From Bolinopsis microptera (taxonomy: Eukaryota > Ctenophora > Tentaculata > Lobata > Bolinopsidae), in contig NC_087073.1 of the NCBI RefSeq assembly GCF_026151205.1, positions 10,300,411 through 10,364,410 of the forward strand: 64,000 nt of DNA, in the 5' to 3' direction. Shown one piece after another: positions 26,696-64,000 of the stretch. The notes below the pieces were generated by a model. It did not search any database and was not told the DNA's origin. It saw nothing but the letters and a program-made list of their open reading frames with translations. The stretch's first letter is position 1. The number at the start of each line of letters is the position of its first letter. Position numbers and translations under genes: made by a program.

Positions 26696-29114
26696 ATGAG
26701 TGAGGGTAAAGGCATAGTAATCTCAGGGCTTTCGGGCCGCTTTCCTAATTCTAACAATGTGGATGAGTTTTGGGACAACCTTGTTGCTGGTAAGTTCTTA
26801 AATGTGCACAATTTAAATTGTACAATGCATGAATGCACATTGATCATCCAATGAAGATGTTTCATTGCTTCCGAAGCAGTTATGATTCACATACCATTAA
26901 TAAACTATTTTAATTTGGCGCATTTCAAAAAATGTTGGCATTTAGTAGTTATCAAACGAATCATGTACCTACTACATACTGGCTCACTAGGCTTACACCG
27001 GGCATTGTTCGTTTAACTAAATGATAAACCCATTGTTTCGCAGGAACGGACATGATCACTGATGAGCCGAGAAGGTGGCCTGCTGGAATATTTGGTCTGC
27101 CGGAGAGAGCTGGACTTCTCCACGACATAGATTCCTTTGATGCCTCCTTCTTCGGGGTCAGTGCCAAGCAGGCCCATCAGATGGATCCTCAGCTCAGAAT
27201 TTTACTGGAAGTTGCTTACGAAGCAATACTTGACTCAGGTTAGAAATAAGGATTATCTACATATTTGAATTTATAATTATCATATTATGGGGTTTCTAAT
27301 AGCATTACAAATATATCAAGGTGTGACTACGAAGCCCCTCCAGTAAATTTTAAACCCTGACTTCAAACCCTAATTACACGAGATGTTATAGGATGATTCC
27401 AAATTGGTAGCCAAATTAATATCTGGTTAATGATTCCCTGATTATGATAGCCCCCATACATAGTACTATTCTGTTAGGATAACTACCCGACTATTTTATT
27501 CCAGGATACCACCCGAGCGAGCTAAAAGGTAAGAAGATAGGTGTGTATGTAGGCGGATCCTCCTCTGAAGCTTACGATGCGTGGTCATCAAACGCTGACG
27601 CCCAAACAGGATATGGTTTACTCGGCTGCTGCCGGTGCATGCTTGCTAACAGAGTAGCCTTCACTTTCGACTTCAGAGGACCCAGTTATACTCTGGACAC
27701 TGCCTGCAGTTCCTCCATGTTCGCTCTGGATGCTGCTTTCAAAAGTATCCAGCTTGGAGAGTGTGACATGGCTCTGGTGGCGGGGGTTAACCTTCTGTTA
27801 AAACCTAATTGTTCCCTAGACTTCCACAGACTTTCTATGCTTTCCCACGATGGCTCTTGTAAGGTATGTGCCATATGGTTCAGACTTGGGAACAAGCCAG
27901 TTTCAAAGTTTTAATACGAATACTTACGCTATGGAAATTTATTGACAGATATGCTGGTCGTTGAGTAGGGGGTTTTTGTGATGTCCTAACTAACTTTCCT
28001 TTTTCATAGACTGACTCACCCGTTTCAGGTATTTGATGAAGGAGCTAACGGATATGTTAGAGCTGAGACAGTTTCTGCAGTAGTTTTATGTAGGGAAAAT
28101 CTCTCCAGAAGAGCCTATGCGAGAATTCTTGGCACCCGAACAAACACTGATGGGTCAGTCCTTAACCTGAATTTAGGGCAATTTTTCACCGTCCTTAGTC
28201 CTTATCCTGAATCGTGGGCTCTTTTTTACTGCCCTGAACTTATGCTCATGTAGTTCTAACCAATTTTCAAGGGAGAACCACACCCTCCCTATGTCAAATA
28301 ATTGATTCTTATAAGTTATAATAATATTTACATTCTAAACCTGTGTAGTTACAAGAGTACTGGGATAACGTATCCGAACCATGAGATACAGGCTGAGTTG
28401 CTGAGCGACCTGTACGAGGCAGCTGGGGTTTCGCCTGACGATGTGTACTATCTTGAAATGCACGGGACTGGAACTCAGGTGACATTCTTTACTTGAAATT
28501 CTTGTCTTTCTGCCGAATTTCAAAATATTTTGAGTATTGCACGCACCGAAAGTAGATACATATAAACTATGTTGTTTTCCATCCCAGGCTGGTGATACAC
28601 AAGAGATGTTGGGAGTTGAGAAGTATTTCCTGGATAATGGGGCCCGATCCTCTGACGCCCCTCTTTATGTTGGCAGTGTTAAGAGCAACATGGGCCACAG
28701 TGAGCCTAGTAGTGGGGTGGCAGCCCTTACTAAGATACTCCTGTCATACCACTACAAGAAGATACCAGCCAACATCAACTTCAACAAACCCAACTCTAAG
28801 GTTTCTTTTATTTAATTAAGGGATTCGTTCATTTTTGGGATTTAGCCATGAACTTGGTCATTAAATTTTGAAACGAGACAGGTGGAGTAAAATAGGGTTT
28901 CTATCCTGGCGGAGCAGGTTTAATTAACGTGTCAATATCAAATAGTTAAAGTTTATCGAATGTTTAAATATTAAATATGCACTTTTCCTAGTTGAAGCCA
29001 CTCGTTGATGGAACTGTTGTACCTGTCACATCGCATTTAGAGCTACGATCGGGGGATATCATCGGAATTAACTCATTTGGATTCGGTGGAGCTAATGCTC
29101 ATGTCATTTTACAG
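26696..29114 (+). CDS. FASN: FAS block 1: ketoacyl synthase (exons 26696-26789, 27044-27238, 27505-27863, 28029-28153, 28349-28478, 28588-28800, 28992-29114)
   Basis: Ketoacyl synthase condenses acyl and malonyl units. The nucleophile Cys is in DTACSSS (residue about 164, codon 27705-27707). The two His are in LEMHGTGTQ (exon 5) and [11 protein letters not shown] (exon 6), and the domain closes with [14 protein letters not shown] in exon 7. All catalytic residues are present. Exon phases are 1, 1, 0, 2, 0, 0, 0. Confidence 0.93.
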
Positions 29115-32100
29115 GTTAATAACTTGATTACGGGAAACATTTCAAATTCATAGAATTTGAAGTTTTGAAATCTCTGAGAATATTTTAAGTTTCCGAGAAT
29201 TCTTAGTCTAGTATTATATTAATAGTTAAGTTAATAAAAAGTTAATAAAAATATGAATAGTTAAGTTAATAAAAGGCTGAATCTAACTCGCAAAACCCCA
29301 GGGAGTATCGGGAGATGAGCCACGACCTGTAAACTCGGAGATTCCCATCCTTGTTCCGTATTATAATCGGAGACCAGAACAAACCCAGTCAGCGCTGTGT
29401 CAGATTAGAGATGAGCACGTTACCCATGACAAACTCAGCTACCTTCACATGATATCTCAGGTTAGCGAGCTTTTATCTATGTTTCTGTGAAAAAAGAACA
29501 GCTTATTTCACACTTGGCAGTCTAGTGCAGTTTAGAGAATCCTATGTAGACAATAAGTTTGATTTATTCAGGGTTCTGCTGCAACAAATGTTACAAGAGG
29601 ATTTGTTATTTTAAACGGAGTAAAGAAAGAACCAATAGTAGCTGAGAGTAGCCCTGCAGCAGAGAAACGGCCCTTGTGGTTCGTAATGACTGGTATGGGG
29701 GCACAGTGGCACGAGATGGGAAAAGACATGCTCAAATACGAAACATTTAGACGGTACGTAAAATGTGAACTGGTAAAATACTTATTAATGGTGTTCAAAT
29801 AGCAAGGTCAATTTACTGGCTATTTGGTAAAGTTATTGAGATTTTACAAATAATACTTCAGGTCAATAGAAGAGTGTTCCGGAGCGCTAGCCTCTGTTCC
29901 AGGATGTACAATAGACCTACACCACCTGCTCACCTCCCCCGCAGCCGAGCTGCAGAGTGCAGAGAACGCATTTGTCGGGCTGTGCGCAGTCAGATAGGTC
30001 TGGTGGACCTGCTGTGCGAGTTTGGGTTGAAGCCTGATGGGCTTTTGGGGCACAGTGTAGGGGAACTGGTGTGTGGGTACGCTGACGGCTGTTTGGATGC
30101 CGGACAAACCATCTTAGCTAGTTACTTCAGAGGTACTTCTTACTTTAGTAATGTGAACAAGCTCTCACAAGGAAACATCTCCTAATTGTTAAAATCATCA
30201 GATTGTTAGATCATCAGTTTATTGGATATTTTAATGCTTATTAAAAAGGAGCTTTAACATTATGCACGCAGGAAAGTGTATTAAAGATGCAGGATTAAAA
30301 GAAGGAGGAATGGCAGCTGTAGGCTTGACTTGGAGTGAAGCAGCAAGTGCTTGTCCTTCTGGAGTTGTTCCTGCTTGTCACAATGCTGAGGTGAGTTTTA
30401 GTACCGCTAGCGTTTTGTTGATATTGTGGTAAATTTATTGGGGTACAAGTTTGGAATACATAATATTTATACTAAAAAGGTAAGTTATGTACACTGTACA
30501 GAGTACAGGTTCCTAAAATAAAATGTTTTGATCTATCATGCTAAGAATATTACAATATTTTCGAATCAAAATGAAAAGTTGGCGTTGAAACCAAGTTATA
30601 TGTACATTGAATTAATTTGCAGGACTCGGTAACGATTTCTGGAGACAAACAAAAAGTTTCAGACCTTGTCCAAAAGCTGGCAGATGATGGAGTGTTTGCT
30701 AAAAATGTCAATTCATGTGGTGTAGCTTTCCATTCTCCTTGTCTCGCTCCTGTTGGACCACAATTGGAAGAATGCTTGAAACCAGTCATTCCTCACCCGA
30801 AACTCAGATCTCAAGGTACGTTCGATAAATAAATAACAATATTCGTGTTTTTATCCAGTTATTTCCATTGTTTGAAGTCACTCCGCTCTCAGACAGGAGA
30901 GCATCTTATCTTATAAATATTTACGGAAGAAGCTCTAGGAGTAGGAGATGTTTTGCTCGGGTCGATACTTCCAACTCGACTTCTAGCATCTAAACTGGTG
31001 TTAGAGTAGTGCTGAATGATAGGCTGACCTTTGCTGAACCCGCTCTGGACCCAGTCTCTGTAGCCCTGCATCCTGCTGTAGTACACCATGGGGCTGAGGT
31101 AGGCGTTCAGGACCACCATCTGGACTGCTGAGATGTTCCAAGTGTAGAACTTCATGAAGATGTTCTGATACCGGGGGTGTGAGTAATTGTGCATGTTTTC
31201 ATAGTCTACGATCCAAAGGAGCATGTTGATACACTGCGGCAGGTTACAAATGAGGAATATTCCAGTTACTATAGTGATTGTTACAGAAGCCTGTTTCTTG
31301 TTTGATTGTCTTCCAGTCGTAGCGATTATATTAGTCTTTCCCAGTTTATAAACAGAACTTATAAAGCTCACTATGATGATAAACGATGGAATCCCAATCT
31401 CCAGTTCATACAACTGATCATCAATTTTGCCGTAAATCTTCTTGATGCCCAAGTCCTCGTAGCAATAGGCGTCAAAAGTGTCATACACGTGTATTTGCTT
31501 GGAGCTCAAGATCGCATACTGCAACACCAGGAATAGCACATAACCTCTGAAAGCCCACACTACGGGCTCCTTAGTTGGAGTCGTGAAAGGAAAGCAAATG
31601 ACAATAGCTCTGGATAAAGCAAGCAGCAGGACCAGGAAGATAGCTAACAACTGCAGGGCTCTGAAGACGATCCTCCAGGCAATACAGAAGTGAATGTTGC
31701 CAAAGAGGAGGGGATCACGTCCCCACCACATGCTTAACATGACAGGGAGGTGAGTCAGACAGGTGAGCAGATCCACTACACAGATCCGTCTGTAGAGCTG
31801 GGTGGGCAGGTCCCTACTTTTACACAGCACGTTGAAGTAGTAGATGGAGAGAATGTTAGCTGGAACTCCAAACAACAGGCCTGTTAGCAGGTTCATCGAG
31901 ATGAGCTTGTCTAGATGTGATACGATGGTTGGGATCTCGTCTAGTTCTGCAGACACGTTGGCCATGTGGTCAAACATAATGGAGCTAGTAAGATTATAAA
32001 GTAAGTCAGAGGAATGGTTATAAAGTTACTCAGAGGAAAACGGAAAACCAATATCCAATTATGAATTGCGGAGATTTGTCATGCATTAGTCTTTGGTAAG

Positions 32101-35100: not shown

Positions 35101-38100
35101 ATCAGTTTAATGAGTATATTACATCCTTATTTCTGATTGTAGGGTTTCAGAGTCGCGTCTGCTCCTGTCAAGATCAGCTGATATGGGGAGGTCAACTTTC
35201 AGAGTTGGAACATAGTTATGAGTTCCTTTTTACTTATTAGTTCTTTACTATAACTTTATCAACAAATAAGATAAGTTCTGTTAGGGGCCGAGGGGAACTT
35301 GTTTTCGAAATAGCAGTTCACCAACGATGAACGACCCGGACCTGTGACCAAACTTTACTGCACAACTATGGTTAGGGTCAAATGTTTTTCATGACGTAAC
35401 ATTAAAAACATCGGAAAATATAATAACGCTGAAAAATCAAGAAAAAAAATATGTATATTATATATTTTCTTTATAATACAAAACCGCGCAACATATTAAG
35501 TGACCTACAACCAAACCAAATACAGATTGACGGCGACACGTCCTAATATGCGCGCGCAGTTTTCAAGTTCTGCACGCCTTATCGATTGTCACGTGCGCCA
35601 CAGTGCACTCTACGGACTTTTATTAGGTACTAGGTATTTGATAAAAGCGAGAGTGAGTCTTGGCAAATGGATAACTGGTCAAGCTGGATCACAATGACGG
35701 AATCCTTCATACGATTGAAATTGAGGCACTTTGTCTTTAATAATTGCTTATACACACAATGTTTTGGAATCTTACGTTGTAAAGTTATAAAGTTATGATA
35801 TTGAATTCTCTACTTCAATTGTGCGCATCGCCAGCTTAACTACCCATGTATTATTGTAGATCCCTCCATGAGGTTAATTCCAAGTAAATAAATCTTGAAT
35901 TGTGAGAACTGAGAAGAACCAGTGTAAGACACCTTGGGGCTTGGAAGTTAATAAAACAATAAGTTGCAAATTTGGCGAATTGCTCAGCTGAATTGCGGTG
36001 TTTTTGCCGCACATTAAAAAGTTTAAGTCGGGTGCTGAATCGTGATCCGAGCTGATCCGTCTGTGTTTCTATTATTATTGTTCAAAAGCAAGATATAATT
36101 CCGATGGTTGCAGAATTGCACTGTCGACATATTGACGCATTTGTTTTCGTACTTTGGCTGTTTTCTGCACTACCAGTTGTTTTTCACAATTCTAATCAAA
36201 GAGTTGGGAGATTTTTGATATCAGTTCACAAGAAACATGACATCGGAAAGCGTATTTGACTTTAAAATTTTTTAAACGTGAAAAAGTAAAATACATTTAT
36301 CATATTATTTACAGGTTGGGTGTGTACCTCAAGAAAAGAATCTGAGTGGGACAAAGCAAAATACTGCGATGCTACTTATCTGTCTAATAATCTTGTCAGC
36401 CCCGTTTGGTACGTGTTTTAGTGACCTAGTTAACTTTTGTACGTGTTTTAGTGTTGTTTGTTGTTTGTTAGTTAACTTTGATATTTTAGTGATTTTCTCC
36501 ACTAAATACTGTACTGAAGATAGTTTAAATCAAGCCTCTGTACTCATTTTTATCATTTAAGTTTGATGAGTCGAAATCTACATCCTTCGCTAGTCTTTAT
36601 GTCTCCTTGTTTATTTCGGCCCATATGCTCTAATTTTTCGTAGCCCTATAACAGCTTATACTTCGGTGCAACTTCAGAATAGAGTAATGAGCTAATTTAA
36701 GCCCCAGAGATTTTGCTAGAATTTATTAGGTTGGCATAAAAGGATAACCGGAAATTAGAGATGGAATTATTGAAGTAAAGAAATGCAGGATGCTTATTTA
36801 TTGCTAAAAACATGAACATAAAGTGTCAATGGCCGCTAAAGAATTCCCTAGAATATTCAGAATATGGCCATAATATTAACAATTTTTGACCTCGAGTATG
36901 ATGGACTAGGTTCCAGAATTTTGAAAAGTAAATTATGAAATAACTTGAACCATATGTTCAGGTTCCACGAGAGCCTTGCCAAGATCCCTGATAATGCGAT
37001 TGTGGTTGAGATAGCAGCTTGTGGACTCCTACAATCCATACTTAAACGAGCCCTACCTACCTGCACAATACTCCCTCTCATGAAACGAAAAGATCCTAAA
37101 TGTGTAGAATTCTTCCTGAACAGCATTGGAAAACTCTGGAACTTGGGTGTGAACCCTAAGTTTGCTAAGTTTTACGAGGCACCCTCCCTCCCTCTGGTAG
37201 ATCTACCTCCCATGTCTGGTCTGGTGGACTGGGACCACTCTGTCCAGTACAACACGCCCGGGCTCAGTGACTACGGAAGTGGTGCTGGAAGTGGCTCTCA
37301 GGTTCGTCCGAGTCATTTTAGTTGGAACATTTCCTCAGGATATTCCTCAGAAGTAACGATTGTTTTATAATGGTATTTAGTTTGGACAATGGACATGATT
37401 TCCCTTAACTGTATATCAAATGTTAGCATTGTTCATCTCCAGGTTTCGTACTCGTACAAGATAGACACAGTCGACTCCTCCAACCCCTACCACACAATGA
37501 AGGATCACGTGATTGACAGCAGGAACCTCCTCCCAGCTACAGGTTATCTCTACCTCGCCTGGAGGTCTATAGCTACAGCTGTTCACTCTACCGTTGATAA
37601 GTGTCCTATAACCCTCCAACACATTACTCTGCACCAGGTTCGTTGCTCACTTAACATAACTAACAATCGCTATTCAAATTTATATTTATAAATATAAATT
37701 TGAATAGCGATTGTTAGTTATATCATTATATGAGTTAAACGCTAAATAGAAGAAAATACACTTTTTATATTACCGTTCTTGGTAGTTTATGTTTATATTA
37801 AGACTCTGACCTCTTCAGGCTACCATTCTGTCGACTCTGGGGCCCACTACCATGACGGTGACACTGAGTCCGGGTTCCAGGAACTTTGAAGTGACATCAG
37901 GTGACAGTCTGGTAGTAAGTGGACAGTACTCACTGGATGATGCAGTACCGACTACTAAAGACAACGAGGAGGGGGATTCAGGAGATCAGCTCATTCTTAA
38001 ACCAGATGGCATCTACAAGGTACATTTATTTTCTACTTTCATTTTTAGATCTGTACTGTTAATCCAGGGGATATAGTCAATTGATAATATTGATTTTTTC

Positions 38101-44100: not shown

Positions 44101-47100
44101 TCGTGTCTGTCATCAGAGAAGTTATCGAGAGAAGAACTAGCCTCTGTCGTTGAACATGATTTAGTGAGCAATGTTCTCGTTAACGGAGTGTGGGGAACGT
44201 ACCGTCATTCCGACGTGACGTCATCAAAAGCTCACGTGACGTCATCAGATAATAACGTGACGTCACGCTCAGCGTATGTAGACACGATTACCCGGGGAGA
44301 TTTGTCCTCACTCTCCTGGATACAAGCTCCTGCCTCTCCCAAATCCCAGAATACTATTACCTGCGAGGTAACCCTGTCACATTTAAAATTTAATATTTTT
44401 TCTCTTAAAACTTGTTTCGCGACTTGTTATTACTTTTCATACTTTAAGTTACTTTGGACTCATATAAATTAAATGACGGACTCAGCACCTTTGAACCTCA
44501 CAACATTTGACCACTCTCTCCCAGGTATCATTTGCCTCGCTGAACTTCAGAGATATAATGATAGCAACAGGTAAGCTCCCGCCTGACGCCTTGCCTCTGG
44601 AGATGCAGGGCAGTAACGACTGTGTGCTGGGACTTGAGTTTAGTGGTCACGTGCAGGGAACTAAATCACGTGTCATGGGCATTCTCCCTGTCAAAGCGCT
44701 CGCTACTAGAGTGGTTACTCAGCCGGACTTTACTTGGAAGGTGGGTTATTGGACATTGGTTGTTTATGTTATCAAAGTTTCTACTTGCTGTTTTCTAAAT
44801 ATGGACTTGTCTTGTCCACAAATTTCTCTCTAGTTGTTGAAATACAGTCGTTCATATTTCTCGAGTTAAACGGGAAACTACAAGCAATATCTCACAGGTA
44901 CCAGATAGTTGGAGTTTAGAAGAAGCCGCCTCCGTCCCCGTAGTGTACTGCACAGCTTACTATTCCCTGATAACTCGCGGGAGACTCCGACGAGGGGAGA
45001 GTGTACTGATCCACAGTGGTAGTGGCGGTGTTGGACAGGCAGCCATTTCCATCTCCCTCAGTCTCGGATGTGAAGTCTTCACAACCGTAGGATCGCAACA
45101 GAAGATAGATTTCTTGATGTCCAAGTTTCCACAGTTGTCGCGGGATCACATTTTGTACTCCCGAAGTGCTAAGTTTGAGGAGGATATAATGAACATGACG
45201 AAGTCTAAGGGTGTTAACGTGGTTCTCAACTCCCTGGCTGGAGATAAATTACAGGTTTGTAGTTTTATTTCTTTTAATAATTGTGCTGGTCACTTGTTGT
45301 ATTGTTTCCGAGGTTCTAGCAGTTAAAAAGCTTTAGTTCAACACAGTAAACTTAAAATAGCCCGGTAGACAATCGGGATTGGTACTGCTTTTGAATACAG
45401 AGTGAACAGACGTTTTATATACTGCATTATTTATAACCTTAGACCTGATGATCGGCCAATAATCAGAAATCATTACGATAGTTGTCTGATTATCGATTCT
45501 ATAAAAGATCATCGTCTTTTCAGAACGATATACACGCGCACTCTAGTAAATGCGCGATAATCGACTTCTCGTTTTCTGTAATAAAAAATAATATAAGAAT
45601 TTTAGTAGGTCGGATAGTTTGAGAAGTAATATCTTAATCCATCTCTTGAATGATACCTTTAATTATAAAAAATAGATCAAGAAGATTTTACGACTGACAC
45701 ATGATTTTTCAGGCGAGTGTACGATGTCTCAGTCGACACGGCAGATTCCTTGAGATTGGAAAGTATGATATGAGCGAGAACAATCCAATTGGCCTTGCTA
45801 TTTTCCTGAAGAATGTTTCGTTCCACGGTATCCTACTGGACGCTCTGTTTGAAGGCAACAACTCTGACTGGGAAGAGGTTCCAATTTCTAATGTTTCCGT
45901 CGAGTCCTTTACAGACACTTACATTGTGATTTCACCATTGTTAAATTCTATTAACTAATCTGATAGATGATTAACCGTACATCTATCTCCAGGTAAGAGG
46001 GTTGCTGGAGGCAGGTATGAAGTCAGGAGTCGTAAAACCTCTCCCAACAACCTGTTTCCTCAACAACCAGCTAGAGCAGGCCTTCAGATACATGGCTCAA
46101 GGAAAACACATAGGAAAAGTTGTTATCAGCACAACCGACGATGCGGGTCAGCTTCCTGCAGTCGTGCTTCCTAAGTTCTCCTGTCAACCCAACAAAAGTT
46201 ACATTGTAACCGGTGGACTAGGAGGGTTCGGGTTGGAGCTAGTTCAATGGTTGGCGGAACACGGGGCACGTAACGTGACCGTCACAAGTAGGTCAGGTGC
46301 TAAATCCAGCTACCAGCAGTGGGTGGTGAGCAGACTCAGGGGTAGTGGAGTTAACGTTACTATAGCAACACACGACACAACCACTGTCCAGGGTGTAGCG
46401 GAGATGTTGGGAGCTACCTCTCAGCCGGTCACTGCCATATTCCACCTGGCAGGGATCCTGAGGGACGGTCTGTTGGAGAGTCTTACAGTTCAGCAGTTTG
46501 AGGAGGTGTACCGGGCTAAAGTAGACACAGCACGACATCTGGACACCCTGTCACGTGACGTTTGTCCTGAGTTGCAACACTTCGTCTGTTTCAGCAGTGT
46601 AGTCAGTGGTAGAGGTAACTCTGGGCAGAGCAACTACGCTGCTGCTAACAGCGTGCTGGAGAGGATATGCGAGGAGAGAATGAAGGGTGGGTATCCTGGA
46701 CTAGCTATACAGTGGGGAGCTATTGGAGACGTTGGGATGGCGCATAGTATGGTGGGTAACGATGCTAATATCGGTGGAACCTATCCCCAGAGAATATGGA
46801 ATTGTCTGAGCACCATGTCTCACGCTATGACGCTCAGCTCTCCAGTAGTCTCCTCTATAGTCCTGGCTGACAAAGAAAACCAAGCAAAGGCTGAGGGTGG
46901 CAGTGATCTGGTGGTGGTTGTTGCCAACATTATGGGAGCATCGGATCCAAGTAAACTCGACCACAACATTTCCCTCGGTGACCTCGGTCTGGACAGCTTG
47001 ATGGGAGTGGAAGTTAAACAGGCCCTGGAGCGGGCTGAAATCAGACTCTCGAGCAAAGAAATTAGAGCTCTCACATTATCAGACATCACAAGACTTCAAA

Positions 47101-50100
47101 GTGGGGAGGATACTTCTGGTAAAACAGAGACCAAAACGGAAGAAAAGGCAACCGAGTCTCTGGTGGTGTTAAAAACAGTGGCTGGTACTGTACCTCTTTA
47201 CCTGATTCACCCTATCACCCTTGACGTAGAACCTCTGGCAAATATAGCTAAGCATCTAGATTCAACTGTGATTGCGGTGCAGTTTACTGAAAAGGCTCCC
47301 TTGGAATCTCTGGAATCTATATCTTCCTTCTACAACTCTGAGATTAAGAAACATCGCGGAGAGGGCAAGTTCCGATTAGGAGGGTATTCGTTTGGGGCCG
47401 TTCTGGCGTTCGAGATGGCACTTCAATTTAAAGAAGACGATCTATCGCTAATGGAGTATCTTGTCCTCATTGATGGATCTCCTAATTGGGTAAATGGGCA
47501 GATTGAGGACTACAAGGAGGCAAATATCAAGTCGAAGAGGTCTGAAAGTTTGGATAAGCCTACTGAAACTGTGCTTGGATTCATTAGGCGTGCTTTTGGT
47601 TCGGAACCTGAAGGACTGTACGAGAAACTGTCAATTCTTTCTCCTGACATTGAGGCTCAAGTTAAGGTAATACTCTTTTGTATTTGTGTGCCAGACGCCA
47701 GTTGATTTCATAATTTCTGAAATGACGCAATTTGTAAAGTCGTTAAATACTAATGCATTCGATTGCTTGAGTTAACTTCGCTTTTGTCTTATAATCCAGC
47801 AAAACTTAGTCTACATCGTATCCCTAGGTTGCCATGTCAGTGCTGAAGGAAAAGATGCCTGGGATGCTGACTGCGGATACAGGGTACAAAATGCTGTATT
47901 TCTCGAAACTCATAATTTTAGCCATGAACTACTCTCCGACGAGCACCTTCTCTGGTTCCGTCCATCTCATCAAAGCTATTGATAGTTATCAGGTACTTAT
48001 TAATTTTTGTCGAAATTTTCAGATATTGTGAAACAATCTCATAAAACAATTTCATAAAACAATCTCATAAAACATGATATTATACCAAAAAACTTGATAT
48101 TTTACTAAAAGTTAAAACCCATAATTGGATAGAGTCTCCCTTTCCTTAAAACAAAAGGAAATGATATCAATTTGAATTACCATTCTCAAGTTATGCACAA
48201 TGATACCGAGAATCAGGGGTGTAGGAATGATTTTCTTCATGGGGGGGCCAAATTCTAAATATTTTTTGGCGCTTCGCGCCACCGCCTAAATTTGTTGGCG
48301 CTTCGCGCCAAAGCCTGAATTTCGAGGGTAAGGATAAAAGGAAATTGCAGCATGTGCGGTATCGCGATTTTTCACGTTTGCCGCAACAAATCGCGATTTT
48401 TCAGATCCTGGCCTCACGACAAATCGCGATTTTTTCATTTCTTTGCGTCAAATTGCGCATTTTCCTTTAAATCTGAGGACCAAAATTGCGTATTTTGCTT
48501 CAAATCTGTGGGCCAAATATTACGTTTTCTATAATTAGTACACGAAACCGATCAGTATCACATCCACAACCTTCCGAATGTAGGTACGGACTTCAAAAAA
48601 AACGAAAAATATATTTTCGGCCCAAAATGATCAGGGTAGGATTAAACATGAACAAAAGTAACTTCCAGAAAAACTTTGAAAAATTTCGACTTAAAAAATT
48701 TTCGGTCCGAGGTGTTCTCGATACGTACCTCTGAAGGCAGAGCTCCCGTTTCCGAGCTCGTATTGCGAAGGGGAGGCCTGCCTTCCGAGATCGCATTACA
48801 AAGGGGAACCCTCGAGTCCAAAATCGTATATTGAACTTCGAAAACCGAAAAAAATATTTTCAGCTCATAATGATCAGGGTAGCATGAAACATGAACAAAA
48901 GTAGTTTCCAGAAAAACTTTGAAAAATTTTGACTTAAAAATTTTCGGTCGGAGTCATTCTCGATACGTACCTCTGAAAGCAGAGCTCCCGCTTCCGAGCT
49001 CATATTGCGAAGGGGAGGCCTGCCTTCCGAGATCGCATTACAAAGGGAAACCCTCGAGTCCAAAATCGTATATCGAACTTCGAAAACCGAACAAAAATAT
49101 TTTCGGCTCAGAATGATCAGGGTAGCATGAAACATGAACAAAAGTCGTTTCCAGAAAAACTTTGAAAAATTTTGACTTAGAAAATTTTCGGTCCGAGTCA
49201 TTCTCGATACGTACCTCTGAAAACAGAACTCCCGCGTCCGAGCTCGTATTGCGAATCGGGGGCCTGCCTTCCGAGATCGCATTACAAAGGGGAACCCTCG
49301 AGTCCAAAATCGTATGTCGAACTTCGAAAACCGAACAAAATATTTTTGGCTCAGAATGATCAGGGTAGCATGAAACATGAACAAAAGTAGTTTCCAAGAA
49401 AACTTTAAAAATTTTTGACTTTGAAAATGTTTGACTTACAAAATTTTTGACTTTAAAATTTTTGGGGGAAAAAAAATTTGTCCCAAAAATTTTTAGAAAC
49501 CTAAATTAAAAAGTTGGCCCTTTTTGGCCCCTTGCCCAGATTTCATGGGGGGGCGATGGCCCCCCTGCCCCCCCACTTCCTACACCCCTGCCGAGAATGA
49601 ACTCGGTGATCGCTCCTTTTTCCCATTCATTTACGGCTTGCGAATTGTAATGAGTTTAGGTTTCTTACATCGACCACACTCTGTAGAAATCTCTTCGGGT
49701 TGCTTTTGGCCCGACACCTAGTGTATTGCCGAGTACTGCCTCCGCGTCAGGTACTGTTCTTCAGTTCATTAAAATTGTAAATGAATGGGAAAAGAGAGCG
49801 ACCGATTTCATTTTCTGTATCATTTTGCATTTTAGAACGGTATTTCAAATTGATATCATCTCTCCTTTGAAAGAGAGACACTGGCAACGGTTCACCCTAC
49901 CCAATTATGAGTTTTGGCAAAATATCATCTATTTTTGGTTAATATCAGTGTCCTCAGAAATGTAATACTGAGAACTTCATTTATAAGGAGGTAAATTTTT
50001 GCATGTTTGTAGTTTATGATTCGTTGCTATTTGCTAAGCATGCAATGATGCAAAGTTTCATTGTAAAAAAAGTCGTGAAAATAACAATTTTCTGTGATTT

Positions 50101-56984: not shown

Positions 56985-57206
56985 ATTAGATTAGATTAGA
57001 TTAAGAATAATGACATAAACATCATCACTAGTTTTAAACATTCTTTCTGATTTCCTCATTATCAGAACTGTGAACATTTCACAGCCTTCGTCATTAAAAA
57101 ACAAACAAATTCTATAACATAATTGTCATAATTTATTTACATATAAAAAAGTTTAAAAAGTTAAAAACCGTTAATTTAAAAAATAAATAAATAAAAACAA
57201 ATTCAA
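56985..57206 (-). mobile_element. LINE 3' tail, copy 2
   Basis: Nearly identical to 25648-25908 and ends on the minus strand in CTTAATCTAATCTAATCT. It abuts the first base of the large LINE at about 57208, so the large LINE may have landed at its edge or both came in a compound event. Confidence 0.6.
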
Positions 57207-57208
57207 AT

Positions 57209-59269
57209 GTGATTCCAGCTGGAGATACTCCTGCCTTGCTCACCAACCACAGAGACCTAGAACAATGCCCTTGTGGCAATTCTTCGGATGCATGGAAGAT
57301 TGACTGTTCAAAATGTCACCAGTTCTGGCATGTGGATTGTCTAAGCATGAAGGGCATGGGACAGTCCCAAATCAACAAACTGGTAGAATATCTATGCCCA
57401 TTCTGCTATGTAGCACCAATCCCAACCATAAATCATGACCTCGACCTCTGCCATGTCTGTAGAAACACACTCACGATCCAGCAAGCCAACAGTGTTCATG
57501 AAATAGGAATAGCAAGTGAGAAGCTGGAACAAATGGCATCATTTGGTGACCTGCTCAACAAAGTGAACTTTGACAACCTCAAAGATGGACTATTGGCCAT
57601 ACAGAACCTCGAGCTACATGTTCAACATATATTAATCAGTGACGAAGGTCTGAAGCATCACCAAAACAAAGTGAGTAAGATAGAGGAACATATGAGTGAA
57701 ATTGCTAAGCAAAAAGCATCAGAGGATGGTTCAATCACTGACATGGTAAAACAGACACATCAGTTGGTTGAACAACTCCAGAAGATCAGTGATAAGCCGG
57801 AGGTAACATCTCACAAGAACGAGGAGCTAATGAAAAGGATAGAAGACAAGCTCCAGGCACTAACCGAAAGTGAGACAACTTTTCAGACCCAACTTAACAG
57901 TTTAGGTAGTCAAATACAGGATCTTAAAGCATCTCCTCAATCCAGAGCACCACCTGTGGCTGAGAAACACTCTCCTCCACCACATACTCTCTTACAACCT
58001 GACCAGCCTACCCCTCATATAGCACATGACCAGGTGCCTGTAACGGAAATCAAGCCAGATTTCATTCTGTCAACTGAATCTGATAAAATTACTGCCTTTC
58101 TTCAGTCATGTTCCTTCGAATCAGAGAACGGTCACTCTGTCATTTCATTTGGCAATCCCTACCACTACACTGGTTCTAAATCTTCAAAAAATGTTCCACC
58201 GATTCCTGAGGAACTTAAACCATTATTTGATGAAATGAACAAAGTACAAACTGAGCTGTACAATAAGTGCTACCCGGAGCAGCCCCACCTGACGGCCCCA
58301 GTTATTAACTCATGTCTCATCAACAGATATGATGGCCCTGATAGTCACCTGCCTAATCATTCAGACCGTGAAGTGACCATCCATCCGGAATCCTCAATTT
58401 TTACTTTGTCTCTCGGCCAGAGTTGTAACATCAAGTTCACTGAATGTGACTCTGGAACTGAATCTTCTCATGAATGTTTAGACCGCTCCTTGTACATAAT
58501 GAGCCGTAGATCACAAGAAGTTTACAGCCATATGATTGAGCGTGGCTCAATATCAGATGGCATTAGATACTCGCTGACCTTTCGTGCTGTTAGCTGGACT
58601 AATAAAAATTGCACAAGTTTACATGGTGATTCAAACACAGGCCTCTTGCGTTTTGGGTCTGACAAGAGGGGTACCTTTGGCGAGCTCATGCCAGGTCAAA
58701 AATTCTGGGCTCCCAGAATTGATGATATCAACCCTGTGTCCTGCATGGGTTACGCCAATGTAGTGCTCCACTGTGGGATCAATGACGTGAGACAGCCTGA
58801 TGTTAAATCTGAGAATGATATTGCTGATTGCTACAATAAACTGAAGCTGAAAATAAAACAAATTAAGAAGCTTAGCCCTAGCACTAGAGCTGTATTTGTT
58901 TGTCAGCTGCTTCCCACTAGGGACTTACAGCTGAATTTTAAAGTTGACTCATTTAATAGACTTATTCATTTTGACCTGCTCCCTACATGTAAGGATGTTG
59001 TGCGTGTTCAGGGTTTTATGAAGTTCGCCTGCAACCGTGTTCTTGCGGACGAACTTTCAAAACAATTTGACAGAAATGGTCGACCTGATACACTTCATCT
59101 TAACAAGTCAGGGGCAAGAGTCCTTGCTGGACTCATTAAACAATCTGTATTTACTAGGTTAAATGGCGGGGCAGACAGAAGACATCACATCGGCAAAGTT
59201 AATGGACGGCTATACAGCAACGTGGCTAGTGACCCGCCTGCACCGCAGCGGATGGGGAGGAACGGTTAA
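57209..59269 (+). CDS. LINE ORF1: PHD finger + AlkB-like 2OG-Fe(II) oxygenase + SGNH esterase
   Basis: A 686-residue frame; no ATG precedes the first domain in frame (the frame opens at 57191), so the 5' end is probably slightly truncated. Residues 20-66 are a complete C4HC3 PHD finger (C20, C22, C33, C36, H41, C44, C63, C66). Residues about 100-240 are charged helix or coiled coil. About 295-470 is AlkB-like: N-x-Y before LPNHSDRE (H384, D386), H441, and RYSLTFR (R453, R459), the full HxD...H...R-x5-R set. About 470-650 is an SGNH hydrolase: LHGDSNTG (S475), HCGINDVR (N525), DTLH (D627, H630). PHD and esterase ORF1 proteins are known in CR1-like LINEs; the oxygenase between them is the unusual part. 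Function is inferred from motifs. Confidence 0.88.
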   Translation: MIPAGDTPALLTNHRDLEQCPCGNSSDAWKIDCSKCHQFWHVDCLSMKGMGQSQINKLVEYLCPFCYVAPIPTINHDLDLCHVCRNTLTIQQANSVHEIGIASEKLEQMASFGDLLNKVNFDNLKDGLLAIQNLELHVQHILISDEGLKHHQNKVSKIEEHMSEIAKQKASEDGSITDMVKQTHQLVEQLQKISDKPEVTSHKNEELMKRIEDKLQALTESETTFQTQLNSLGSQIQDLKASPQSRAPPVAEKHSPPPHTLLQPDQPTPHIAHDQVPVTEIKPDFILSTESDKITAFLQSCSFESENGHSVISFGNPYHYTGSKSSKNVPPIPEELKPLFDEMNKVQTELYNKCYPEQPHLTAPVINSCLINRYDGPDSHLPNHSDREVTIHPESSIFTLSLGQSCNIKFTECDSGTESSHECLDRSLYIMSRRSQEVYSHMIERGSISDGIRYSLTFRAVSWTNKNCTSLHGDSNTGLLRFGSDKRGTFGELMPGQKFWAPRIDDINPVSCMGYANVVLHCGINDVRQPDVKSENDIADCYNKLKLKIKQIKKLSPSTRAVFVCQLLPTRDLQLNFKVDSFNRLIHFDLLPTCKDVVRVQGFMKFACNRVLADELSKQFDRNGRPDTLHLNKSGARVLAGLIKQSVFTRLNGGADRRHHIGKVNGRLYSNVASDPPAPQRMGRNG

Positions 59270-59274
59270 CAGGT

Positions 59275-62200
59275 ATGGTTAATCGTGTTCAAAAGGAAAT
59301 TTGTTATCACTGTCTGAAGAATATTGGTCTAGGGCTTCCCCACTTTGAATGCTTTAACTGCAACAGTATTTTCCATGCCAAATGTTTTAATCCCTCCAAA
59401 GCACAAGTTATTAATGACAACTTTTACTGCATCAAATGTAAACATTCTATATCTAAAAAATATAATCCTTTTAAAGTAATGACCGATCCTGAAGTTAATG
59501 ACTGTGACCCATGTCTCCAAAAGATGTCTGATGTTTTGGAAAACTGTAGATCCTATACAATTAAGGACTTTAACACACATATCAAACCGTGTTTTGCAAG
59601 CAACTGCTCCATGATTTTCCAGAACATAGATGGCAATAAAACAAATTTTGATGCCTTTAGCATGGAACTAGACCTAATAGCCGAAAAATTTAAAATTATT
59701 GGACTTGCTGAAACCAATATTGGAATAGAGGAAAGCACTGTTTACCATCTAGAGGGATACAATTGTTTCTACCAAGATAAACATATCAATAAAGCGAAGG
59801 GAAGTGGAGTAGCATTGTACTTAAAGGACGAACTTAATGGAGTTGTAAACGAAGAATTATCATGGGTAACCAAAAATCTTGAAACCCTATTTATTACCAT
59901 TCAACATGATGAACCTCTACATGTAGGAGTTCTGTACCGTCCTCCTAGTGGGAACGCCTCAGAGGCACTAAATGAACTTAGAAAAATGATTGAATCATGC
60001 TCAAAAAAGAATGTTTACATACTAGGAGACTTCAACATTAATCTCCATGATGAAAACAGTAAACTCGTTCAAGACTTTGAAAACCTTATTCTAGGCCTAG
60101 GTTTATCACCACTTATTTCTACGTCTACGCATCATAAACCAGGATGTAACCAATCATGCATTGACAACATACTCACCACCAACATCGAAAACTCTATCTG
60201 CTCTGGAACGATTAGTACCTGCATCAGTCACCATCATGCTGTATTTAACATATTCAACTCACCCCTAGTCAGTGCTGAGGATCATGAACAAAAGCACTTC
60301 CAGTACTATGACTACTGTGCAACTAATGTGAACAAATTTGTCGAAGTACTAGACAATGAATTAACAAGTGATCCACCAGAAGATTTCAGTACTTTTTTCA
60401 CTCTATTCAATCATCAACTAGACAACGCATGTAAACTAGACCAGCCTAAGTGTTCTAAACGTACTGCTAAAAACAACCCATGGATTACATCTGGCCTAAT
60501 TGCCTCTATAAATAGAAAACATGAGCTTTATGACCTATGGAAAAAGGCAGTTAAGAAGAAATGCCTCAGCAACTCTTCACCTAGCCATGCAGACTGTCTT
60601 ACTCTTTGTTATAATTGTACAAATAAGGTAACACGTCATGAAGAATTTAAGGCACACCGGAAGTTATTAAACCACCTTATCAATTCTGCAAAACGTAAGT
60701 ATCATGGTGTTAAGATTACAGAATGCGCTGGAGATAGTAAGAAAACCTGGCAGATAATCAACGAACTACGTGGTAAGAAAAGACGTGAGATCAAGCCGAA
60801 CTTCGTGATAAATAATGAACGTGTGATTAATCGTCGTATAATTGCAAATGAGTTCAATAAATACTTTGCCTCTATTGCAGCTAACCTGAACGAAGCATAC
60901 TCTGGTGACTATTTGAGAATAAATTCGCTGCCTTCATTTACTGACTACCTGCCAACATCAATTACGTCCAGTATTTATCTTTGGGATTCTGACTGTACTG
61001 AGATTAAAGAGACCATAAGCGAACTAAAAAACGGGAAATCCAGTGACATACCTATTCATGTGATCAAGAAGTCAAGCCAAATTACTGCACCGTACTTAGC
61101 TAGATACTTTAACAAATGCATGCAAGAAGGCCACTTCCCCGATGAATTGAAGACTGGGAGAATCAGCCCCATTTACAAAAAAGAAGATGAACAGCTATTA
61201 GAAAACTATAGACCAGTATCAACTCTACCTGTATTCGGGAAAATTCTAGAAAAGTTAATTTATAAGAGGCTCTATAGTTTCCTTACTTCCAAGGGGATAA
61301 TACATGAAAACCAGTTCGGCTTTAGGAAAGGACACTCCACCAGCCATGCACTGAACTACTCTGTAGAACATATAGAATCGTTAATTAGTAAAAAGCAACA
61401 TGTCCTAGGGGTCTTCATCGATCTCTCAAAAGCCTTTGACACTCTAGATCACTGTAAACTAACTACTAAATTAAAAAACTACGGTATAAGAGGGAATGCT
61501 CTGAATCTTATCTCTAGTTACTTGTCTAATAGGAAACAATTTGTAAATGTTCTAGATACCAAATCTGATGAATTACCGGTCGAATTTGGAGTCCCTCAGG
61601 GTAGTGTATTAGGACCTCTACTTTTCCTACTGTATATCAATGATATTTGCAATATAACTAATAAGGGTAAATTTGTCTTATTTGCAGACGATACTAATAT
61701 ATTTGTCGCTGCCGATTCGAAAAATAAAGCATACGAATTGGCTAATGAAGTACTACAGGCCGTAAACAAGTATATGGGAGTTAACCTACTGCACATTAAT
61801 GTAAAGAAGTGTTGTTATATGTACTTTTCTCCCTCTAAACGTGATAATAGCGAATTAAATGCAGATATAGATAGCCAAAACTTGTCCATAAATAACAAAA
61901 TAATTAAACGTGTAAGTCAGACAAAATTTCTTGGAGTAATCATTGATGATAAACTAAGCTGGAAACCACACATATTATCTCTCAATAAGAAACTAAGTAG
62001 TGCTTGTGGACGTATCTACCGTATTAAGAAATGCTTGCCAGAATCACTATATAAGCAAATATATCATTCCCTCTTTGAATCACACCTAGGTTATGCTATT
62101 TCTGTCTGGGGAGGTATTCCCAATAATCAGTTGAAACCGCTATTTATTACTCAAAAGAAGTGTATCAGGATTCTCTTTGGAGACTTTGAAGCCTATGTAG

Positions 62201-62619
62201 ACAAGTTCAAGACATGTGCTAGAGCAAGACCAATTAATTCTCAACGTCTAGGATCTGAATTCTATGTTAAAGAGTCCACCAAACCTCTATTCACAAAACA
62301 CGAACTACTTGCTATAGAGAACCTATACAGATACCGTTGTTTAATGGAATTGTTTAAGATCATTAAGTCACGAGTACCAATTTCGTTATACTACCTATTC
62401 GGCTTATCAAATAGGAAAGATAATTTGTTAATCACGCCCTCTCCAACTAATCAATTTATGTACAAATCTGCATGGCTGTGGAACGAATTTCGTAAAGTTG
62501 GGCCGATGAATTTCACCTCCCCTTGCAGCTCTGTCAAGAATTTGCTTAAACAGTCACTTCTAAGAGCTCAAAACAGGTATGGAACTGATTGGTGTGACAA
62601 AAATTTCACTGAATTCTGA
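59275..62619 (+). CDS. LINE ORF2: PHD-type finger + AP endonuclease + reverse transcriptase
   Basis: 1,114 residues from ATG 59275, five bases after the ORF1 stop and in another frame, so translation likely depends on reinitiation. Residues 10-55 form a C4HC3 finger (C10, C13, C26, C29, H34, C37, C52, C55). About 110-345 is an APE-type endonuclease: FQNIDGN, GLAETNI, LYRPPSGN, LGDFNIN, SCIDNIL, SHHHAVF. About 620-900 is the reverse transcriptase: ENYRPVSTLP, FIDLSKAFDTLDH (D716), PQGSVLGPLLFLLYINDI, FADD (803-806), TKFLGVIIDDKLSW. The end has WLWNEFRKVGP, the usual C-terminal signature. No stop or frameshift. It nicks target DNA and copies the element RNA. Clade CR1/L2-like by architecture; exact clade not determined. 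Confidence 0.93.
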   Translation: MVNRVQKEICYHCLKNIGLGLPHFECFNCNSIFHAKCFNPSKAQVINDNFYCIKCKHSISKKYNPFKVMTDPEVNDCDPCLQKMSDVLENCRSYTIKDFNTHIKPCFASNCSMIFQNIDGNKTNFDAFSMELDLIAEKFKIIGLAETNIGIEESTVYHLEGYNCFYQDKHINKAKGSGVALYLKDELNGVVNEELSWVTKNLETLFITIQHDEPLHVGVLYRPPSGNASEALNELRKMIESCSKKNVYILGDFNINLHDENSKLVQDFENLILGLGLSPLISTSTHHKPGCNQSCIDNILTTNIENSICSGTISTCISHHHAVFNIFNSPLVSAEDHEQKHFQYYDYCATNVNKFVEVLDNELTSDPPEDFSTFFTLFNHQLDNACKLDQPKCSKRTAKNNPWITSGLIASINRKHELYDLWKKAVKKKCLSNSSPSHADCLTLCYNCTNKVTRHEEFKAHRKLLNHLINSAKRKYHGVKITECAGDSKKTWQIINELRGKKRREIKPNFVINNERVINRRIIANEFNKYFASIAANLNEAYSGDYLRINSLPSFTDYLPTSITSSIYLWDSDCTEIKETISELKNGKSSDIPIHVIKKSSQITAPYLARYFNKCMQEGHFPDELKTGRISPIYKKEDEQLLENYRPVSTLPVFGKILEKLIYKRLYSFLTSKGIIHENQFGFRKGHSTSHALNYSVEHIESLISKKQHVLGVFIDLSKAFDTLDHCKLTTKLKNYGIRGNALNLISSYLSNRKQFVNVLDTKSDELPVEFGVPQGSVLGPLLFLLYINDICNITNKGKFVLFADDTNIFVAADSKNKAYELANEVLQAVNKYMGVNLLHINVKKCCYMYFSPSKRDNSELNADIDSQNLSINNKIIKRVSQTKFLGVIIDDKLSWKPHILSLNKKLSSACGRIYRIKKCLPESLYKQIYHSLFESHLGYAISVWGGIPNNQLKPLFITQKKCIRILFGDFEAYVDKFKTCARARPINSQRLGSEFYVKESTKPLFTKHELLAIENLYRYRCLMELFKIIKSRVPISLYYLFGLSNRKDNLLITPSPTNQFMYKSAWLWNEFRKVGPMNFTSPCSSVKNLLKQSLLRAQNRYGTDWCDKNFTEF

Positions 62620-63179
62620 GTGAGAAGTGATACTTGCCTGTTATTCCCACTTACTGACTGATAATCTTATCTATGGATACCATGCTTGAATTTAGGTAAA
62701 CAACATAGCACTTCCTCACCAGTCACGTTGAACGCGATCGCCGAATGATAAAACAATATGGGAATGAACGCGCACAGCATTGCGCGCTGATACTCTAAAT
62801 ATATACTGTGCGCGTTTCGTCCGGAACCTGGGGGAGTTCCCGCTCTAATATATCTGACGACAGTGATCACTCATTATGAGAACTAATCCCGACCACTTTC
62901 CCGGTCGAACAGTACCCAAATCAAACTAATTTATGAACCACGTGTATAGCCAACGTCCTTGCGGTGCTGAGCCGATGTAAAACTCTTCTGTCTCTTGTTA
63001 ATATTTTAGCTGAACTGTGCATAAAAGTGTGTAGTGACAAGTGTGTAGTGGTAATGCATATTATTTATTATGACGACGCGATATTTATAATGAAGAATTA
63101 AAAGCTGCTTTCGATATGACTGGTGGTGGGCTCTCTCCGGCGGGACATAAATCTATATAGGGGGTACCCGGGGTACGAG
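62620..63179. other. LINE 3' UTR and flank, no gene seen
   Basis: After the ORF2 stop the probable 3' end includes TGATAATCTTATCTATGGAT at about 62660; no clear tail repeat or target duplication was found. The rest is ordinary intergenic sequence with a GCGCAC/GTGCGC stretch at 62770-62815. Confidence 0.35.
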
Positions 63180-63214
63180 TTAACGAACAGTGTTCGTGTC
63201 CTTCCACAACCCCC

Positions 63215-63371
63215 TGTTACCTGTGTTTCTGTCGGGGTAGCCTAATTCATCCGTTAGAATCGCAGAGTTAGCGGAGCTCATGATATCTCGCGACGTATGC
63301 TGCATGAACGGTGCAAGACTTGCGCCGTTTGTTTCAGCATCCAGTTGCGAGTGCTTGCCCATCGAAAACAT
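63215..63371 (-). CDS. Possible first exon of an unrecognised gene
   Basis: On the minus strand ATG 63371 opens MFSMGKHSQLDAETNGASLA and reaches GYPDRNTG before CAG|GTAACA, a good donor at about 63214. Composition looks protein-like, without low complexity. The frame closes a few codons later without splicing. No downstream exon was identified in the remaining sequence to the left, so this is weak. Confidence 0.25.
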
Positions 63372-64000
63372 GATTAGTGATTGTGGATTTTATTGATATT
63401 ACTGATTATCCATCATATTCAGTATTAATGTTATCCATTATTTATTTATTGACATCCTTCAGTCTCCAAAACGAGGTGTGAAGGTAAATTAACTTTGAGC
63501 CTTGTTTTGGCGACTGCTTAATCGATGGGCAAGTAGGTATTTGTTTTTTAGCAGTGTTGAACATTGAAACAATTATAAAATGTTTATTTTTATCTTATAT
63601 AACGTACAATATGAATGACATATGCTATAGTGACGTAACATATATAGTGCAAAGAATTAGTAACTTGCGAGATGTGATTTAGTGATAATCGACGTTAACA
63701 TTTTGCAGTTTACAGTTGCACAGTGTTGACGTCGATTGTTACTAACATGTATCTGAATTTAATACAAGTACATGTCACATATAAATTGGGTAGCTGAATG
63801 AAACTCGTGCCTCAAAATTTTCCGTTATTAGCATTGCAGTGTCCACGCCCTGTACTGCATTAACGACCGAAATTTTCCCAATATGCAATTATTGTTTTGC
63901 TTCTAAAATTCTCTGATAATTAATAATATATCGTGACATGTAATTGTAAAATAACAAACCTCGCGCGCGCGGCGCTTACATCTGCACCTGAGAATCTCTC
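63372..64000. other. No gene seen
   Basis: AT-rich sequence to the window end, closing with a CGCGCGCGCGGCGC stretch at about 63962. Possibly the promoter side of the minus-strand exon. Confidence 0.35.

Follow-up and report, generated by a model that had tools for sequence, protein, structure and literature searches.

We analysed a 64,000-nt stretch of contig NC_087073.1 from the ctenophore Bolinopsis microptera (genome G000, 264.65 Mb; the whole stretch is called the window below) and found that the first open reading frame (ORF1) of a long interspersed element (LINE) at its right-hand end encodes a predicted AlkB-type Fe(II)/2-oxoglutarate oxygenase, and that this domain is under purifying selection among the copies of the element. 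The comparison of sequences and a structure model support the order PHD finger and coiled coil, AlkB-type oxygenase, and SGNH esterase for the predicted ORF1 protein. Judged by domain matches in the host genome, the combination of AlkB and SGNH recurs in several LINE ORF1 layouts and also in Helitrons. LINE ORF1 proteins are mostly regarded as RNA packagers, and what appears to be new here is AlkB as a further catalytic module in a LINE ORF1, while PHD fingers, esterase-type ORF1s and AlkBs borne by transposable elements (TEs) are already known.

Domains encoded by the element

The original prediction, made from the letters of the window, had read ORF1 as a frame with an AlkB-type HxD motif at residues 384 and 386, a histidine at residue 441 and an R-x5-R motif, and these features were confirmed as numbered. 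The domain matches the Pfam family PF13532 (2OG-FeII_Oxy_2) over ORF1 residues 316-459 with an E-value of 5.5e-16, which is above the cut-off. In the predicted structure, this region contains the strands of a double-stranded beta-helix and overlays ALKBH2 and ALKBH3, in line with the fold that had been expected of it, and the fold matches of the model include the AlkB domains of plant RNA viruses.

The same prediction placed a PHD finger and an SGNH esterase on the two sides of the oxygenase. Zinc ligands and catalytic residues, the structure model, and fold and PDB matches all support these two domains, but their Pfam matches are below cut-off or absent. The zinc ligands of the putative finger are each conserved in 118-123 of the 119-123 proteins that cover the position, and PDB profiles match the region to DIDO1/BPTF (0.0017-0.003); the Pfam scan of the window ORF1 gave no PHD model at E<=1, and the Pfam PHD matches in the relatives L038 and L056 are below cut-off. 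At residue 39, the counterpart of the position where a cage tryptophan is common in histone-reading PHD fingers, 77 of the 121 proteins that extend so far have F or Y. For the predicted esterase, S475, G496 and N525 are present in 147/147 proteins, D627 in 140/141 and H630 in 142/142; the fold matches of the model also support this region, and Pfam gives it a weak PF13472 match of 0.041, short of the cut-off.

The second frame (ORF2) matches RVT_1 (1.2e-38), Exo_endo_phos_2 (4.4e-08) and also Exo_endo_phos, and the solved structures closest to it in sequence are LINE-1 ORF2p (PDB, 3.4e-15) and other retroelement reverse transcriptases such as R2. Its N-terminal zinc finger was recognized by eye, with a Pfam C1_1 match below cut-off, and the Pfam scan of the element gave no RNase H family at E<=1. 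The layout, with two ORFs, an APE-type endonuclease with a reverse transcriptase and no RNase H, supports the assignment of the element as a CR1-like LINE, in agreement with the earlier reading of the frame as the ORF1 of such an element.

Selection on the oxygenase and its occurrence in other elements

We compared 148 proteins, of which 121 are ORF1 proteins (the window copy included) and 27 are additional, with 42 and 76 further matches lying outside the set; 74 of the 121 ORF1 proteins passed the filters on coverage, length and 80% identity for the structure alignment. The results show that Y318, Y320, N372, H384, D386, E388, H441, R453 and R459 have no or almost no variation, and that H384, D386 and H441 do not vary freely across copies, each being found in 148/148 proteins. 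The ratio of nonsynonymous to synonymous divergence (dN/dS), a test that the original prediction had suggested, shows a synonymous excess in the oxygenase and is below 1 in all usable groups. It was obtained from Nei-Gojobori counts between copies of the same genome, with pooled pairs that are not independent, for 23 of the 30 loci L001-L030; L005, L006, L013, L014, L016 and L019 were left out for internal stops and L020 as a partial copy. For AlkB, the 21 pairs of subfamily B give a dN/dS of 0.055, the D2 pair gives 0.137 and a single A-B pair 0.169; in this A-B pair the comparison of synonymous with nonsynonymous differences gives a Fisher p of 3.7e-10 (rounded counts). The coil is less constrained than AlkB in these three comparisons and in the three within A, within D1 and between D1 and D2 that are given below. 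AlkB is also kept between subfamilies whose ORF1 identity falls to ~36-43%, and in two genera of ctenophores, the named relatives outside Bolinopsis being from Mnemiopsis. The Pfam score, the model, the invariant residues and dN/dS rule out a chance match or a decayed domain.

Among 1141 candidates in the host genome, at least 65 ORF1 matches were scored, 57 of which are free of internal stops, and at least 151 matches to PF13532 were found there, host genes included (150 scored of 587 candidates). These many copies rule out that the AlkB-bearing ORF1 of the window is a one-off insertion. ORF2 relatives at 60% and 58% identity (one locus each: L037, which is cut at its left end, and L038) also have an upstream ORF1 with AlkB and SGNH. 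Between subfamilies A and B, DNA identity is 41-63% up to ORF1 residue ~240 and 80-97% beyond it, and the ORF2 proteins are 94% identical; the step is sharp in the comparison of L001 with L007, at ORF1 residues about 230-241. This jump in identity near residue 240 indicates that the PHD-coil half was exchanged against a stable AlkB-SGNH-ORF2 half.

Other LINE loci show further layouts. The order PHD, coil, AlkB and SGNH is repeated in L056, where the SGNH residues align and the PHD match is again weak; L053 has AlkB followed by SGNH (8.3e-06, below Pfam cut-off) and L057 has AlkB followed by an SGNH domain recognized by eye, and neither shows a C4HC3 finger by eye. In L055 (1103-3433), ORF1 has an N-terminal AlkB, a coil and a C-terminus that is SGNH-like by eye only. 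The endonuclease frame 3' of ORF1 is above the Pfam cut-off in L053 and L056 and below it in L055, and that of L057 was assigned by likeness to L053. Among the AlkB matches in the genome, at least six lie in open frames over 2,000 amino acids (aa) long, and all three of those scanned (L039, L138 and L139) match 2OG-FeII_Oxy_2, Helitron_like_N and Lipase_GDSL_2 in one frame. The Lipase_GDSL_2 match passes the Pfam cut-off in L138 but not in L039 (8.3e-06) or L139 (1.3e-06), L139 additionally has a PIF1 helicase match, and the HxDxE motif is kept in all three; L054 has a Helitron-like frame by likeness to L039. A DNA transposon, the Helitron, here bears the same enzyme pair as a LINE, AlkB with GDSL/SGNH.

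To place these domains, we used a midpoint-rooted tree of 47 chosen AlkB domains: 16 from close ORF1 relatives, 5 from further LINE loci, 2 from Helitrons, 3 host, 2 human and 6 bacterial domains, and 13 of 35 database proteins, which had been retrieved for their likeness to the LINE domain; the set is without E. coli AlkB and ALKBH5/8. The bacterial domains are 6 of the best 80 of 243 relatives from a scan of genome contigs with a host ALKBH3-like protein. A branch with 100/99 support parts the main LINE and Helitron AlkBs from the host enzymes, human ALKBH2/3 and the bacterial enzymes, and the joint fork of LINE and Helitron domains has a lower support of 92/93. On the TE side there are also database proteins, one of them with the annotation uncultured virus. 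Viral contigs scanned with the AlkB alignment gave 33 pattern matches, none of which was confirmed as a relative. The AlkB of L055 has a long branch and groups with the host and bacterial enzymes, which makes a second capture of AlkB possible. The host AlkB genes (L040-L042), identified by PDB matches, comprise an ALKBH2-like frame of 234 aa and two that are ALKBH3-like. Separately, a PF13532 relative of ORF1 (P0174) is filed in a Saccharospirillaceae bacterial metagenome-assembled genome, probably as eukaryotic contamination of the bin.

Proposed function, rival explanations and known systems

We propose that the ORF1 oxygenase is an ALKBH2/3-like demethylase that would remove lesions of the 1-methyladenine (m1A) and 3-methylcytosine (m3C) type from the single-stranded RNA template or the growing cDNA of the element itself, a proposal in which our confidence and our doubt are about equal. 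The LINE domain shares the fold, the metal triad and the acid at E175/E195 with cellular ALKBH2 and ALKBH3, and we take D135 of E. coli AlkB to be the same position as E175 of ALKBH2. N1-A and N3-C lesions arise in unpaired nucleic acid, and their exposure there would explain why AlkB is found both in LINEs, which pass through RNA and then cDNA, and in Helitrons, which pass through single-stranded DNA. In ALKBH2, E175 contacts the base amino group and the E175A substitution abolishes activity on m1A and m3C (PMC12295762). E. coli AlkB prefers m1A and m3C, its D135 approaches N6 of m1A, D135I gains activity on N6-methyladenine (m6A), and m1A/m3C-type marks block reverse transcription (PMC7968990). 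From these comparisons we infer an active enzyme with a single-stranded substrate, in which E388 would give a preference for m1A and m3C like its counterpart in ALKBH2. ORF1p would keep the enzyme on the template, and the removal of lesions would let the reverse transcriptase copy the template to its end. The PHD finger would contact chromatin, and the SGNH esterase would serve membrane targeting, lipid binding or assembly of the ribonucleoprotein (RNP), as proposed for ZfL2-1 (PMC3905857). We regard as plausible, though no more than that, the suggestion in the original prediction that the element repairs or demethylates RNA or cDNA of its own. A broader scheme, which we put forward tentatively and with more doubt than conviction, is that the AlkB-SGNH cassette of both ctenophore TE classes, an m1A/m3C-type demethylase with a lipid esterase, keeps single-stranded intermediates copyable and was passed between LINE ORF1 and Helitrons by module exchange, its main AlkB lineage being nearer the virus-annotated AlkB than the ALKBH2/3-type enzymes of host, human and bacteria.

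Several observations weigh against an ALKBH2/3-like demethylase. Positions besides E175 on which the activity of ALKBH2 depends are not retained in the TE domains: the V99 position of ALKBH2 is a gap in 22/23 TE domains (ALKBH3 differs at this position too), the S125 position is T, S, N, P, V or H, and the R110 position is H, R or S, while the F124 position is Y or F in 23/23. The position of F102, the duplex-probing finger of ALKBH2, is a gap in 23/23 TE domains and in ALKBH3, in a poorly aligning loop. V99A and S125A, like E175A, abolish the activity of ALKBH2 (PMC12295762). The NCBIfam bacterial AlkB equivalog models match ORF1 far below their cut-offs (0.036), and the host's own ALKBH2-like and ALKBH3-like genes leave the need for an element-encoded copy unexplained. 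Selection is less strict within subfamily A (dN/dS 0.279; 6 pairs, with 7 nonsynonymous and 7 synonymous differences summed), within D1 (0.378; 15 pairs) and between D1 and D2 (0.300), and AlkB is saturated, without a usable ratio, in the pairs L001-L018, L001-L023 and L018-L023. Because Helitrons do not pass through reverse transcription of an RNA template, a block of this step cannot be the whole reason for AlkB in these elements. In addition, the only assayed TE-encoded AlkB known to us, from an orchid Gypsy element, is an ALKBH5-type m6A demethylase (PMC9289625).

That orchid enzyme, which demethylates m6A of single-stranded RNA in vitro (PMC9289625), raises the possibility that the LINE oxygenase erases m6A or another regulatory mark on the element RNA, which would thereby escape host RNA surveillance, and L1 RNA bears m6A, so such marks do occur on LINE RNA (PMC7873242). 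We consider this unlikely, since the ORF1 AlkB is nearer to ALKBH2/3 than to ALKBH5/FTO in sequence and fold, with ALKBH5 scoring lower, and since the acid E388 is invariant, whereas a change of AlkB D135 to Ile opens m6A activity (PMC7968990). Moreover, the m6A writer aids L1 in mammals and the eraser ALKBH5 suppresses it (PMC7873242), and an m6A eraser encoded by a LINE would therefore be expected to harm the element. An action on chromosomal target DNA or on element copies, by repair or by removal of DNA methyl marks, with the PHD finger tethering the RNP to chromatin, is improbable in our view: ALKBH2 and ALKBH3 are DNA enzymes, the adjacent finger retains its zinc ligands and Helitrons also bear AlkB, but the gap at F102 argues against it, and the PHD finger does not seem to be a needed partner because L053 and L057 show no C4HC3 finger by eye and the AlkB of L055 is N-terminal.

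Some AlkB-family proteins act on protein, and several base-pocket positions of ALKBH2 are not kept in the TE domains, which would fit an oxygenase that hydroxylates protein or a mere scaffold for binding nucleic acid, with base catalysis not being the selected function. A scaffold would not need the metal site, and the metal and signature residues are invariant or nearly so in the 148 proteins, which makes this explanation very improbable. Least credible is a neutral passenger domain, recently captured and amplified by hitch-hiking. The recent common ancestry of TE copies does make conservation within a single subfamily weak evidence, but the retention of AlkB at the ORF1 divergence given above and in both ctenophore genera, the triad in all homologues compared and the synonymous excess already contradict it.

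The proposed demethylase has partial counterparts in known systems. The Phalaenopsis Ty3/Gypsy retrotransposon likewise encodes an AlkB-family protein that keeps the Fe and 2-oxoglutarate residues; it is a plant long terminal repeat element with an additional ALKBH5-like AlkB/2-oxoglutarate-dependent dioxygenase ORF, assayed on m6A, and its demethylase activity was shown in vitro (PMC9289625), whereas the predicted AlkB of the window LINE is borne by ORF1 in a ctenophore, lies nearer ALKBH2/3 and is coupled to PHD and SGNH. SymbioLINE-Dnmt of the dinoflagellate Symbiodinium resembles the window LINE in that purifying selection acts on a nucleic-acid-modifying enzyme encoded by an ORF upstream of the reverse transcriptase frame, but this enzyme is a cytosine methyltransferase and not an oxygenase (PMC5890265). 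CR1/L2 LINEs share the PHD finger, coiled coil, SGNH esterase, two-ORF layout and modular ORF1 swaps (PMC4120745, PMC3905857); the former paper gives esterase-type ORF1s only from vertebrate groups, and the latter, on the ZfL2-1 esterase, gives transposon esterases also from cnidarians and sponges. Plant RNA viruses are a further case of a parasite genome with an AlkB acting on RNA, for which repair maintaining genome integrity was proposed (cited in PMC9289625), but their domains lie in replicases of RNA viruses, with no reverse transcription. We found no report of AlkB in a LINE or Helitron in the literature searched, which comprised titles and abstract starts of the best matches, with subscription papers mostly uncovered and Repbase outside the scope, and an earlier remark may exist. 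The word AlkB occurs 0 times in PMC4120745, PMC3905857, PMC5890265, PMC6431247 and PMC12221973, and the word oxygenase 0 times in PMC4120745 and PMC3905857.

If ORF1 has its own base demethylase, chemical damage to or modification of the template becomes a selected problem in retrotransposition, and the domain would be part of a naturally occurring fusion of a demethylase with a retroelement protein. With AlkB also in Helitrons, elements of class I and class II would have a link in the single strands that both expose. If the broader scheme is true, the AlkB-SGNH cassette would be the first case of LINEs carrying a template-repair system of their own.

Extent of the window copy and other features

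Homology to the window copy begins exactly at 57205 in five of seven close copies (L002, which equals L031, L003, L004, L006 and L020) and later in the other two (L005 and L016). L002 and L004 continue upstream with 49 extra, Met-initiated ORF1 residues, of which L003 has only a part, which shows that a 5' truncation has removed the beginning of ORF1 from the window copy, and the GTG at 57209 is therefore rejected as a true start. Apart from the truncation, both frames of the copy are open, with five bases between them. Comparison with other copies places the 3' end of the LINE at about window coordinate 64156 (about C2:10364566), where a short tandem tail with two copies of an A/T-rich unit was seen by eye, and inspection by eye showed no evident target-site duplications at 57205 or at the 3' end. 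The features are collected in Table 1. In L002, the copy with a full N-terminus, tandem repeats of ~99 bp lie 5' of ORF1 (L002:1-1160) and resemble the promoter monomers of some LINEs.

Table 1. Positions of the predicted features, in window coordinates unless a locus is named; residues are those of ORF1
Feature	Position	Strand	Basis or remark
LINE copy, 5'-truncated	57205..64000, runs ~156 bases past the window	+	homology limits in close copies
ORF1 open frame, 686 aa	57209..59269	+	without the first 49 residues and start codon present in L002 and L004
PHD-type C4HC3 finger, residues 20-66	57266..57406	+	ligand conservation, PDB profile matches
Predicted helical/coiled-coil region, residues 82-240	57452..57928	+	long helices in model
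Predicted AlkB-type Fe(II)/2-oxoglutarate oxygenase, residues 272-463	58022..58597	+	
H384-x-D386, putative Fe ligands	58358..58366	+	each 148/148 homologues
E388, aligned with ALKBH2 Glu175	58370..58372	+	148/148 homologues
H441, putative Fe ligand	58529..58531	+	148/148 homologues
R453-x5-R459, aligned with ALKBH2 R248 and R254	58565..58585	+	147/148 and 147/147
Predicted SGNH esterase domain, residues 464-650 (S475, G496, N525, D627, H630)	58598..59158	+	
ORF2, 1114 aa: N-terminal zinc finger, endonuclease, reverse transcriptase	59275..62619	+	Pfam, PDB profile matches
3' untranslated region	62620..64000, continues beyond the window	+	common to other copies
Helitron frame	L039:3304-9900 (G000:C10:16871100-16881000)		Pfam
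Helitron frame	L138:148-7500		Pfam
Helitron frame	L139:303-7499		Pfam

Elsewhere in the window, frames on the plus strand at 27483-27911, 36939-37367, 44841-45323 and 45975-47702 are by eye polyketide/fatty acid synthase-like, with ketoacyl-synthase and reductase motifs, and a 378-aa frame at 30892-32025 on the minus strand is by eye rhodopsin-type receptor-like. A tandem repeat with a 243-bp unit, 3.4 copies and 92% matches lies at 48598-49428.
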